64,000 nucleotides of DNA from positions 1-64,000 of the forward strand of contig JANXAL010000028.1 of assembly GCA_025062325.1 (NCBI GenBank), written 5' to 3'. This stretch comes from Roseiflexus sp. (lineage in GTDB: Bacteria > Chloroflexota > Chloroflexia > Chloroflexales > Roseiflexaceae). Shown here in pieces: positions 41,605 through 48,230 of this stretch. The translations under genes and the position numbers were made by a program. The first letter of the stretch is position 1, and each line of letters begins with the position of its first letter. Under the pieces are notes generated by a model. That model saw nothing but the letters and a program-made list of their open reading frames with translations. It made no database searches and was not told the DNA's origin.

Positions 41605-42138
41605 CTACGCCTCGCAGGTCAGTGCACTTTCAAGCGCAGCAATCATGCGCCCAATCAGGGCGAAGGTCGCTGGGTATTCAATCCGCTCTCGCTCAATCAT
41701 TCCCGGCGCCCAGCGATACCGGGCAATCGTCGCCGATGGTCGTCCGGTGCAACTTAGCACCACCTCCCAGTAGGTAATGTCGGAATCCTCGCGGTGGGGC
41801 GGGGACGAGCGCAACTGTGCAATGCCTTCGCTGTCCTCGAGCTCCCAGACGGCCAGCGGCTCTTCAAGAAAGCTCATTGCTCGGATTGTGGCAGCCGCGT
41901 GATGACTGAGCCAGGCGCGCACATCGTGCATGACGGGTTCGGTGTGGCATGTCACCGCGAGTTCGCGGATCGTCGCGCTGAAACGATCCAGGTCGGTCAG
42001 ATCGATGCGAGCATCAGCGGCGGCGGATGGAACTGCAATCACCTTTGCGCCATCATCATTCCAGGAAAGTGCACTCACCGCCTGCGGACCCTCGCTCGCC
42101 AGGCGCTTCAATGTATCAACCGTCTGTTTTCCTAGCAT
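41605..42138 (-). CDS. Hypothetical protein in the prkA-prmC gene string
   Basis: The 177-residue protein is not recognised. It is mixed alpha/beta, acidic, without membrane segments or clear motifs; segments include LSWNDDGAKVIAVPSA and WEVVLSCTGRPSATIARYRW. The ATG at 42138 is chosen because GGGGAGG lies 8 bases upstream, while the ATG at 42144 is too close. It sits 21 bases after spoVR and 3 bases before prmC, so it is co-transcribed with both. Confidence 0.75.
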   Translation of the reverse strand: MLGKQTVDTLKRLASEGPQAVSALSWNDDGAKVIAVPSAAADARIDLTDLDRFSATIRELAVTCHTEPVMHDVRAWLSHHAAATIRAMSFLEEPLAVWELEDSEGIAQLRSSPPHREDSDITYWEVVLSCTGRPSATIARYRWAPGMIERERIEYPATFALIGRMIAALESALTCEA

Positions 42139-42159
42139 TGTCATTCCTCCCCGGCAGAC

Positions 42160-44853
42160 CTAATCCATCTTCCGTTCCGAGAAATCGCGTCCATCGAACG
42201 TGATCAACCGCCGCTTTTCGTCCACCACCGTTTCGAGATGCACCGGTCGCGTCCAGATGCGCTGGATATTGCGCAGCGTATCGCGTGCATAGTCCATCCT
42301 CAGCTCAACCCCCTCATAACGATGACGCAGATAGAGTTCGCCGCGATTGTTGTAATTCCCATCTTCGACGTAGATGAACGGTTGCCCGAAATTCGTCAGG
42401 CGGAACAGGAGTTTCTCCTTGATCTCCTTGAACTCGCGCGACGCGATCTCATACATATCTGTATCACGATTGTAGCGGAATGTAAAGAGCTTCTGCCGCA
42501 TCACAAACTCAGGCGTCAGGAACTCGTCAATAAACGTAACATCATTGTAGAGACGGCGGATCTCGAACAGTTTCTGACGCCCCAGACCTAACTGCTTATC
42601 CCAGTTGAGTTTAGCGGCTAAGTCTTCGCATTCCTCGTACTCTTTGCCGAAACGCCCGGTATTCCAGCGGAACTCAATATCGCGCAGCAGTTCGAGTCCG
42701 AGTTTATACGGATTGAGGCGCCCGGGATGGACCGCGACTACGCTGGAGTGACGGTCGGCGAAGTCAATCAGTTCATTGTCACGCAGCGCCTTCTTGGTCA
42801 TAATCTCCGAGTGCCAGTAGCTATTGTGGTTGATGAAGCCCTGCGCAGCGTAGCGGTGCGTTGCGCGCACCGAGATATCATACACATGAGCGCGTCCTCG
42901 CTCAATCGACACGATCTCGTCCGACCAGTCCTCGCGCCTGAACCAGCGTCGATCTTCGATATAGTGCGCCAGCGCCGCCTGCTTGCGCGCCAGACCGAAG
43001 CCGATCTCGGCGAAGAAAACGGCGGCTGAACGACCGGTGACATGCACGCGCCACGTACCATCCGCATTGGCGCGACGGCTGGCAAGGATGCCGAAGTTAA
43101 GCAGCAGTACTTGAACAGTTTTGCCCATCTCCTCGCTGGCAGTGGATAGAGTGACGCCAGCCGCGCTCGCATAGCCATCGCAGTCATACAGCGCACGCAG
43201 GAACGCCGCAACAACCGGCTTCGGCGAGCGCAGAATGACATCGGGCACGGTCTTCTCACGCGCCGCAACGCCGGTCTTGAGCCCAAGATAGGTCAGGAAA
43301 TCATGGGCATCGCGCGACGAGAACGAGACGCCCCAGCGCTTCCCATCCCTGTGCCAGCGCGCCTCGATGCCGAACAGGGAGCGAACGAGATTGGCGAAGG
43401 CATGCGCCTGATCCTCATCGGCGGTCGTCAACCCGATAGTATGCTTGACCGCGCTGATATGTCCGTTGCTGCACAGATACCCCAGAAACGCTGCCAAACG
43501 CTCATCCACGACCTCTGGCGCGCGAATGGGAGTCTGTCGCCAGGTGGAGCCGTAGTCGGCAATCGCGGCGTCGTGCGCTGCAACGAGCGGCGCCAGCGTT
43601 GGTGCGTGAACGCCGCGCACACTCCGCTGAGAGCGAATGGCAGTCTCAATCTCGACCTCAGCGTCATCGGTGATCGGTGCGAGCATCATGCGGCGGACCG
43701 GTAACCAGTCGATAGCGACGTACTGTTGCGCCCACAGGTTCTGCCCGCCGCTAACCCTGACCCGGTCGCCGACCTGGAGTTCATCAAGGCGGCGCCAGTC
43801 GCCATTGGGCAGCATCACGCGATGGTTAATCGAGCCTTCGAGTTCCAGACCACGCCGTGTACGGATCTTGATTGTCTCGTAGTTCTCGAACGACGCCCAA
43901 TCATAGACGGCTTGCGGCGTTTCACCATCGCTCACCCTCACTGCCTGTCGGCGGGCAACGATATCACCGAGGCGGAGTACTCCCTGATCGGTGAATACCA
44001 GCGTATCGTACCGGCAGCAGGCCCATCCCTCATTGAGTATCTTCGTCATCCCCTGGGGAGCGAAGTAGTACGCCTCATCGCGCACAATTTCGAGGATCGA
44101 ATGCTGCCAGCGTTCTAGCGGCGCATAATTCATTAGGAAGAGAAGCACATCCTTCTGCGGATGCTCCGGGAATTTCTTCTGGCGCGCGCGTTCCTCCTCG
44201 AGGCGTTTTCGCTGTTGCTCGAGAAACTCCGGCGGGTTGATGTAGTCGCGCATGTAGCTGCGTTCAACCGGCAACCCCTCGACCACCAGTGGCTCTTCCT
44301 CGGCCGTAACCGATTGATGGGTCTGCGCTTCAGGGCGCTTAATATACGGCGCATGGTAATCGATCAGGTTTTCGAGTGAGAGGCAGATATCGATGAACTC
44401 TTCGACCGTCTCGTAGCCATAGCGGTCGATGAGGCGCTGCACGCGCGCAGCGTGATTCGCCATTTCATCGAGCATCTTGCGGTTCGTATGCGCGAACCAC
44501 ATGTTATTCTTGAAGAAGTCGACGTGCGCCGCGACATGCGCCATCACCATCTTCTGCGTGACCATGTCGTTGCCTTCGAGGAGATACGCATATGCGGGGT
44601 TGGTGTTGATGACCATCTCATAGATCGTCGAGCCAAGCCAGATGTGGCCCTTCATGAGCTGGTCATACTCCATGCCGAAGCGCCAGTGGGGGTAACGGAT
44701 CGGAAATCCGCCAAGCGCTGCAGTTTCATAGAGGGTGCGATAATCGAGCACTTCATAAATGATAGGGAAGAAATCGAGCCCATACTCTCTGGCGTAGGCT
44801 TCGATTTCCTCCCACGCAGCCTGCAACTCGGGGGGAAGACGGGTGTTTTTCAT
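42160..44853 (-). CDS. spoVR: SpoVR family protein interrupted by an intein
   Basis: The 897-residue precursor contains about 498 residues of SpoVR and one intein (residues 279-677). The N-extein ends MTKILNEGWA and the C-extein begins SYWHSEIMTKKAL; joined they give the conserved SpoVR core EGWASYWHS. Other SpoVR marks are FFPIIYEVLDYRTLYETAAL and HVDFFKNNMWFAHTNRKM at the start. SpoVR acts with the PrkA kinase and the DUF444 protein in stress and starvation responses in non-sporing bacteria; the biochemical role is unknown. It lies 21 bases after the DUF444 gene. Function depends on protein splicing. Confidence 0.95.
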   Translation of the reverse strand: MKNTRLPPELQAAWEEIEAYAREYGLDFFPIIYEVLDYRTLYETAALGGFPIRYPHWRFGMEYDQLMKGHIWLGSTIYEMVINTNPAYAYLLEGNDMVTQKMVMAHVAAHVDFFKNNMWFAHTNRKMLDEMANHAARVQRLIDRYGYETVEEFIDICLSLENLIDYHAPYIKRPEAQTHQSVTAEEEPLVVEGLPVERSYMRDYINPPEFLEQQRKRLEEERARQKKFPEHPQKDVLLFLMNYAPLERWQHSILEIVRDEAYYFAPQGMTKILNEGWACCRYDTLVFTDQGVLRLGDIVARRQAVRVSDGETPQAVYDWASFENYETIKIRTRRGLELEGSINHRVMLPNGDWRRLDELQVGDRVRVSGGQNLWAQQYVAIDWLPVRRMMLAPITDDAEVEIETAIRSQRSVRGVHAPTLAPLVAAHDAAIADYGSTWRQTPIRAPEVVDERLAAFLGYLCSNGHISAVKHTIGLTTADEDQAHAFANLVRSLFGIEARWHRDGKRWGVSFSSRDAHDFLTYLGLKTGVAAREKTVPDVILRSPKPVVAAFLRALYDCDGYASAAGVTLSTASEEMGKTVQVLLLNFGILASRRANADGTWRVHVTGRSAAVFFAEIGFGLARKQAALAHYIEDRRWFRREDWSDEIVSIERGRAHVYDISVRATHRYAAQGFINHNSYWHSEIMTKKALRDNELIDFADRHSSVVAVHPGRLNPYKLGLELLRDIEFRWNTGRFGKEYEECEDLAAKLNWDKQLGLGRQKLFEIRRLYNDVTFIDEFLTPEFVMRQKLFTFRYNRDTDMYEIASREFKEIKEKLLFRLTNFGQPFIYVEDGNYNNRGELYLRHRYEGVELRMDYARDTLRNIQRIWTRPVHLETVVDEKRRLITFDGRDFSERKMD
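42823..44019 (-). mobile_element. Intein with LAGLIDADG-type homing endonuclease domain in SpoVR
   Basis: The element is 399 codons in frame. It begins with Cys (CCRYDTLVFTDQG, block A) and has GSINHRVMLP (block B with His). It ends HVYDISVRATHRYAAQGF then INHN before the +1 Ser of the host (blocks F and G). Between the splicing halves are two LAGLIDADG helices: AAFLGYLCSNGHIS (about residue 461 of the precursor) and AFLRALYDCDGYAS (about residue 558). The usual GDG of the first helix is SNG, so one catalytic Asp is Asn; the second keeps DG. Splicing residues (Cys1, block B His, His-Asn end, +1 Ser) are all present. Splicing is expected; DNA cutting may be lost. Confidence 0.93.
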
Positions 44854-44874: not shown

Positions 44875-45984
44875 CTACCGGCCTTTGCCAAGAAAATCCT
44901 TAATCGCATCATAAATATCGTCGCGATCAGCTATCTCCGAGATCACCAGCGCCTCATGCTTGCCCAGATGCTCCTCGAGATCGTGCGCAAAGCGCCCGGA
45001 TCCATAGAGCGAACGCACCTGACCGTAGCAGAACTGGTTGACCTTGGGCAGCAGTTGGGTGCGCAGCAGTTCGATACATTCGCGCGTATCGCCGCCACCC
45101 CAGTTGTCGCCGTCGGAAAAGTGGAACGGGTAGATATTCCATTCTTCAGCCGGGTAGCGCTCATCGATCAGTTTGTTGCACAATTTGTACGCCGAACTGA
45201 TCTTGGTGCCGCCGCCTTCACGGATATGGTAGAACGTCTCCTGATCGACCTCTTTTGCGGCAGCGTCGTGCACAATGTAGCGAATATCAATCGACTTATA
45301 CTGCGAGCGCAGCCAGGTTTCGATCCAGAACGCTGTAATGCGCACCAGCTCCTTCTGCTCTGCACCCATTGAACCGCTTACGTCCATCATGTAGATGATG
45401 ACCGCATTCGACTCAGGTTGAAGCGTTTCTTTCCAGGAGCGATAGCGCATATCCTGGCGAATTGGCACGACAATCGGGTCGGCGATGTTGTATTCGCCTG
45501 AAGAAATCTGGCGTTTGAGCGCCTCGCGGTAGGTGCGCTTGAAATGCCGCAATGAGTCCGGCCCGACACGGCGGATGCCGGAGTAGCGATCCTTCTGTGA
45601 GATGATATTTTTCTTCCCCTTCGGCTTGATATTGGGCAGTTGCAATTCCTCGCCAAGGATCTGCGCCAGTTCTTCGAGGGTGACATCAACCTCGATGATG
45701 TGCTGCCCTGGTTCAGAGCCTGCCTCACCCTGCCCCGACTGCCCATCGCCCTGCCCGATCGGGTCGCCGACGTTGCCGTCGCCCTGCCCGACGCCACCGC
45801 TCTGGCGCAAGCCATAGCGGAACTGCGGCAGATCGATCTGCGGCAGCGGGATCGACACGTACTTGCGTCCCTGGCGGCCGATCATCTCACCCTGCGACAT
45901 GTACTTGCGCAGGTCCTTCTTGATCTTGCCGCGTACAATCTGGCGAAAGCGGTTCAAATCGCGCTCAACGCGGTGGATTGACAT
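44875..45984 (-). CDS. DUF444 (YeaH/YhbH) family protein with von Willebrand A domain
   Basis: The 369-residue protein matches the YeaH/YhbH family. The N-terminal part is basic ([20 protein letters not shown]), a Gly-rich charged linker follows ([20 protein letters not shown]), and a VWA-type domain has the metal site [16 protein letters not shown]. It includes the family pattern [14 protein letters not shown] and [14 protein letters not shown]. It works with PrkA and SpoVR; in E. coli YeaG-YeaH are co-expressed under RpoS in starvation. It lies between prkA and spoVR, 21 bases before spoVR. Confidence 0.93.

Positions 45985-46151: not shown

Positions 46152-48230
<2,079 letters not shown>

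Follow-up and report, generated by a model that had tools for sequence, protein, structure and literature searches.

The gene for SpoVR in the window analysed here, which is the whole stretch of 64,000 nucleotides from Roseiflexus sp., is split by a long in-frame insert, and the locus raises the question of what this insert is and which of its activities are likely to have survived. The host bacterium is photosynthetic and belongs to the Roseiflexus group. Most inteins are hosted by ATPases and replication enzymes, and SpoVR, which is a stress-operon protein, lies outside these classes. The first-pass annotation of the window had proposed an intein whose splicing motifs are intact and whose endonuclease is probably weak or dead. 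Both parts of this proposal are backed in the present work by comparison with 84 other copies at the same site, by intein-free SpoVR genes within the genus and by a structure model, and the reading which very likely applies is that the insert is a class-1 intein which was once mobile, in which the first catalytic aspartate has recently been lost and a helix-turn-helix (HTH) region has decayed, and which would still splice but would no longer home.

The SpoVR locus and the anatomy of the insert

The SpoVR precursor open reading frame, recognized by Pfam, occupies 42160..44853 on the minus strand and comprises 897 codons plus stop. Upstream of it in the same operon lie a DUF444 (YeaH-type) gene (44875..45984, minus strand) and a gene for the PrkA serine kinase (46152..48230, minus strand), both also recognized by Pfam, and the three together form the usual PrkA-YeaH-YcgB/SpoVR stress operon. 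A 179-residue open reading frame located between spoVR and a downstream methyltransferase-type gene (window positions 41605-42144, minus strand) has no significant Pfam match.

The insert itself occupies 42823..44019 on the minus strand, where the first-pass annotation had placed it correctly to the base, and extends from Cys1 to Asn399. Its 1197 nucleotides (399 codons) contain no stop and lie in frame between the EGWA that closes the N-extein (44020..44853, minus strand; SpoVR residues 1-278, ending in NEGWA) and the SYWHS that opens the C-extein (42160..42822, minus strand, stop included; SpoVR residues 279-498). At the N-terminal junction the codon GCC (Ala, 44020-44022) is followed by TGC (Cys1, 44017-44019), and at the C-terminal junction AAT (Asn399, 42823-42825) is followed by AGC (Ser+1, 42820-42822). 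Splicing block A (CCRYDTLVFTDQG) lies at 43981..44019, block B (LELEGSINHRVM) at 43813..43848 and blocks F and G (HVYDISVRATHRYAAQGFINHN) at 42823..42888, all on the minus strand, and the splicing residues are all present: Cys1, Ser63 and His66 in block B, Asp381 and His388 in block F, the terminal His398-Asn399, and Ser+1. Block B has the form S..H rather than the textbook T..H, but this form is normal for the SpoVR-intein family, and His66 is invariant in both alignments. The endonuclease carries a first LAGLIDADG motif (AAFLGYLCSNGHIS) at 43453..43494 and a second (VAAFLRALYDCDGYAS) at 43165..43212, both on the minus strand, with LAGLIDADG helices at residues 173-183 and 267-281. The Cys start, the His-Asn end with Ser next to it, the splicing blocks and the two helices, all of which had been described at first pass, are confirmed by the codons, by Pfam and by the alignments.

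Given this anatomy, splicing would proceed after translation by an N-S shift at Cys1, transfer to Ser+1, and cyclization of Asn399 aided by His398, and excision of the intein would join the exteins into a SpoVR with a predicted length of 897-399 = 498 residues.

Identification of the insert as an intein

Pfam finds SpoVR on the open reading frame in two pieces (E 1e-123) which flank matches to LAGLIDADG_3 and Intein_splicing; on the insert, LAGLIDADG_3 matches in two stretches (E 7e-21), and the NCBIfam intein_Nterm/Cterm models match weakly at the two ends. The structure model of the insert (pLDDT 92.5, pTM 0.88) has the HINT splicing fold and resembles many inteins with Z of 16-33. Over its whole length the model is matched best, among solved structures, by the intein TliVMA (Z 33.2; 312 residues aligned at an rmsd of 3.2 A), with PhoVMA next (Z 28). 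These two VMA-b inteins, the active one of Thermococcus litoralis and the degenerate one of Pyrococcus horikoshii (PDB entries 7QSU, 7QSS and 7QST), combine HINT with a two-motif LAGLIDADG endonuclease as the SpoVR intein does, but they are hosted by the P-loop of the V-ATPase, share 26-28% identity with the window intein, and carry their accessory domain between the endonuclease and the C-terminal splicing part, whereas the HTH of the SpoVR intein, a three-helix segment, follows the N-terminal splicing part and precedes the endonuclease. PI-SceI, the yeast VMA1 intein, likewise consists of a splicing fold, a LAGLIDADG endonuclease and an extra DNA-recognition region (Z about 20-21), but it has about 15% identity to the window intein and differs from it in host, insertion site and accessory region. 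The splicing domain of the Mtu RecA mini-intein aligns to the window intein at about 2 A with Z 20; mini-inteins of this type resemble the end point reached by the SpoVR copies of Chloroflexus (274-279 residues), while the window copy still has a full-length endonuclease.

When the whole precursor was modelled, confidence in the SpoVR part was modest (pTM 0.49), and the listed top structure matches are all inteins, homing endonucleases or their relatives, so the SpoVR fold is left without a claim. A search by sequence found no solved relative of SpoVR.

An insert which is fixed at one point of a protein in many genomes could in principle be a lineage-specific SpoVR domain rather than an intein. 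This explanation is extremely improbable in view of the intein splicing fold and blocks, and it is contradicted by SpoVR proteins that lack the insert: comparison of relatives, which the first-pass annotation had suggested, shows that in 28 Chloroflexales genomes which were inspected the insertion point of SpoVR carries no intein. Among these genomes, G001 and G003 belong to the same genus and have empty-site DNA in which GCC runs directly into AGT. In addition, presence and absence of the insert change at least 12 times on the Chloroflexales SpoVR host-gene tree, gains and losses being counted together. The insert in SpoVR is a class-1 intein.

A second close copy of the intein in the genome as a donor was considered and rejected, because a search with the insert at E 0.1 recovered just the insert, which was also the single match of the Pfam splicing model in the genome. 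Because the assembly is a draft of 143 contigs, a second spoVR allele may lie in a gap.

SpoVR appears to be a new intein host, and the insertion point a new site, for an intein of known kind. No mention of SpoVR together with an intein was found in the open-licence literature, where the first-pass statement that no SpoVR intein was known therefore holds; the term "undescribed" is provisional to that extent. The choice of site suggests that EGWA/SYWH is a likely functional centre of SpoVR, a poorly understood protein.

Decay of the endonuclease in the window copy

The first LAGLIDADG motif of the window copy reads SNG, as noted at first pass, where full-length relatives mostly read GDG; the codons are AGC AAC GGA, compared to GGC GAT GGA and GGC GAT GGG in the two closest relatives. 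The middle codon (AAC, 43465-43467) places Asn185 in the first helix, where a catalytic acid is required, and the second helix retains its catalytic Asp281. Aspartate occupies the position of residue 185 in 95% of full-length relatives, and 56 of 64 retain both catalytic acids.

In order to separate changes in the homing parts from changes in the splicing parts, positions kept in at least 90% of 64 copies were defined as conserved. The window copy has changed none of the 32 conserved splicing positions and four of the 47 conserved endonuclease positions (G184S, D185N, R230G, G285S), while its two nearest sisters, L074 and L075, both of which have GDG, show no change at either set of positions. 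The splicing score of the window copy is the second-highest of the 64, and its endonuclease profile score is mid-range (rank 36 of 64). Across the family, the eight full-length copies that have lost a catalytic acid have lower endonuclease scores (p 5e-4, the copies being treated without regard to relatedness) and splicing scores that are not lower (p 0.85, 64 copies, relatedness again uncorrected). When independent branches are compared, the direction is the same in 4-5 of 5 pairs, which are too few for significance (sign test, median p 0.125).

It is unlikely, given this pattern, that the endonuclease is still active, either because Asn185 is tolerated or because the enzyme acts as a nickase through Asp281. 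What speaks for activity is the intact second motif, the middling profile score, and a dN/dS against the nearest copy of 0.15 in the endonuclease, which compares with 0.04 in the N-terminal splicing part, 0.07 in the C-terminal splicing part, 0.42 in the HTH and linker, and 0.02 in SpoVR. This low value suggests that the loss is recent, and the constraint which the endonuclease region still appears to be under would mean either that inactivation occurred very recently or that the domain keeps some role. Against activity stand the near-universal aspartate at position 185, the joint change of four conserved positions and the HTH, and the parallel with PhoVMA. The family profile aligns the Asp of GDG with the IADG of active TliVMA and the MANG of PhoVMA, so that PhoVMA, like the window copy, has Asn at the first catalytic position; PhoVMA lacks catalytic Asp residues, is inactive, and cut DNA once they were restored (PMC8966425). 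The analogy is imperfect because in PhoVMA, unlike in the window copy, the second Asp is also missing and the second motif is truncated. Some residual nicking by the window endonuclease may persist, because Asp281 remains.

A putative LacI-like helix-turn-helix region which has decayed with the endonuclease

The putative DNA-recognition region that separates the N-terminal splicing part from the endonuclease (residues 113-156; 43552..43683, minus strand) is tentatively read as LacI-like from Pfam matches in the family, from model helices and from profile scores. With an E threshold of 0.1, the LacI HTH profile PF00356 matches 23 of the 64 family members, the lowest E being 1.4e-4; the window copy is not among them. 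The model of the window copy places helices at residues 113-120, 124-131 and 139-156, with lower local confidence (pLDDT 56-83). Against a family HTH profile from which the Roseiflexus rows were left out, the window copy scores 25 bits and the two intact sisters reach 61 and 58; for the splicing parts, scored with the same rows left out, the window copy and these sisters are equal. The eight copies with a lost acid have a median HTH score of 23, compared to 62 (p 2e-4, uncorrected for relatedness). Read from these alignments, the HTH of the window copy decays together with its endonuclease, and the decay is limited to the parts associated with homing.

A mobile ancestor would have used the two-motif LAGLIDADG nuclease with its LacI-like HTH to cut intein-free spoVR, and repair would have copied the intein in. 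In the genome of the window, the recent change of Asp185 to Asn and the decay of the HTH would have left an intein which is now inherited vertically. From the loss of Asp185 together with the HTH decay it follows that this copy probably still splices and homes no more, the loss of homing probably being recent. Near-identical pairs of inteins in which HTH and catalytic acids are lost and splicing residues kept make these predictions directly testable.

The closely related L078 and L079 inteins of the Oscillochloris group have DNA that is about 95% identical except in two segments, at residues 1-40 and 101-160: the opening 40 codons, in which the two blocks of 20 codons match at 28 and 41 of 60 bases, and the HTH segment, where the figure is 36-42 of 60. 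These segments reflect either recombination or diversification, and no donor for them was found among the SpoVR-intein copies compared.

Stages of the homing cycle in Chloroflexales

The homing cycle, which passes through invasion, decay, deletion and loss, is usually assembled from scattered cases. In Chloroflexales, a single fixed site within one order carries intact, dead, truncated, mini and empty alleles, and the window copy, which the first-pass annotation had described by itself, becomes one stage of a decay series in a widespread intein family. In addition to the empty sites described above, the series includes copies with GDG (in G002, G004, G059, G055, G037 and others); point-dead copies, which are the window copy with SNG, that of G005 with SR and one codon lost, and that of G009 with GGG and CNG; shortened inteins of 325-368 residues; and mini-inteins of 274-279 residues without an endonuclease, which are found in 7/7 inspected genomes of genus g16 (Chloroflexus). 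Genus g29 alone contains 400-residue, 325-residue and empty alleles. This natural series fits the Goddard-Burt homing cycle (reviewed in PMC7765530).

The preceding results bear on whether splicing, too, might be broken or conditional, mature SpoVR then being rare or produced only under stress as in a regulatory switch. The host is a stress-operon gene, the Cys-Cys start could be redox-sensitive, and mini-inteins persist in every inspected Chloroflexus genome after loss of the endonuclease. However, the catalytic splicing residues are all kept and the splicing score is among the highest in the family, and persistence of mini-inteins is equally expected, since precise deletion is rare. Broken or conditional splicing therefore appears unlikely, and it is doubtful in a similar way that the intein has been retained after homing because slow or stress-dependent splicing times SpoVR activity, the Chloroflexus mini-inteins then being the established form of such control and the window copy lying near the beginning of the path towards it. 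The preferred reading is that of a copy which splices and no longer homes.

A co-conversion scar at the site was considered: flanking identity is flat relative to the other occupied Roseiflexus copies, and the intein-free copies differ more just downstream of the site (44-49/60), which may hint at co-conversion. Two empty-site SpoVR genes of genus g12 (L050 and L059, in genomes G031 and G070) have Thr at +1 (TFWHS) and occur beside occupied relatives; the site has possibly been altered against homing. In G065 (L056 / L144), SpoVR is split between frames and a 283-residue intein is still readable, which reflects either a sequencing error or a broken gene.

Distribution across phyla

A scan of the intein and its flanks against 84,980 species genomes yielded at least 79 loci. 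The 85 same-site inteins that were measured, the window copy included, all begin with Cys (85/85) and all end in His-Asn (85/85), although the latter count is for the relatives partly a matter of construction, because the boundary search used that pattern. Their hosts are labelled as Chloroflexota, Planctomycetota, Myxococcota, Acidobacteriota, Bdellovibrionota, Nitrospirota and, for one metagenome-assembled genome, Pseudomonadota. The last of these may be misnamed, because it groups with Myxococcota in both trees, and single odd hosts (Nitrospira, Bdellovibrio) could be binning errors, because most of the genomes are metagenome-assembled; one fixed SpoVR site is occupied in at least six phyla, and probably in seven. 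Among 400 sampled Chloroflexota genomes, families f27 and f46, which belong to other orders, also have SpoVR split at the same profile point in frames of about 830-930 codons, as judged by profile split and frame length only.

The same-site copies nearest to the window intein are from Roseiflexus, and within the genus the intein is less conserved than its host (87.7 vs 97.6% identity). The reverse is seen in some Chloroflexota-Planctomycetota pairs, in which the inteins resemble each other more closely than their hosts do (62.9 vs 45.4% in one example), but these identities are supporting evidence only, because L084, with its long-branched SpoVR, takes part in the strongest pairs. The intein and host trees disagree on some copies: a single Planctomycetota clade is rejected by the intein tree (p 7e-7), because of L100, and is not rejected by the SpoVR tree (p 0.29); L121 and L124 are joined in the intein tree, a grouping rejected by the SpoVR tree (p 4e-9); and L100, from Planctomycetota, and L124, from Nitrospira, both group with inteins of Myxococcota. 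Horizontal spread between phyla is partly supported by these sequence comparisons. As a single clade of Chloroflexota inteins stands unrejected (p 0.77), descent of the window copy within this phylum is compatible with the tree, and its origin in another phylum is without support.

Viral and phage copies

On two IMG/VR contigs, a SpoVR gene beside a DUF444-type gene is occupied at the same site, by inteins of 420 and 416 residues, and PrkA is also present on one of them (L153). Neither record gave a match to Terminase_6N, and their assignment to viruses is that of IMG/VR. The viral inteins have 27-28% identity to the window intein and form a separate long branch, and so give no support to a recent phage source for the latter. 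The best match in phage records lies in a helicase-like protein of an uncultured phage of 485 kb rather than in SpoVR. SpoVR genes occur on the viral records L153, L154, L166 and L169 (the isolated Thermus phage MN1); on L153 they have PrkA and DUF444 beside them, and L169 also carries a gene for a serine protein kinase.

Mycobacteriophage inteins in TerL and other proteins sit at functional motifs and are carried by phages (PMC5050341), as SpoVR copies also are on the two IMG/VR contigs. The viral SpoVR of L154 (1120-4995) has a second intein besides that at the EGWA site, which in the HxxxH/DFFKNN motif immediately follows the second His (AHCSAH | CFITGTLIE..ITHN | SDFFKNN), and the position of this copy suggests that the motif, too, is a likely functional centre of SpoVR. 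At the end of the same contig, a ribonucleotide reductase contains a further intein-like start (RRC LPQNTLIHTKNGL).
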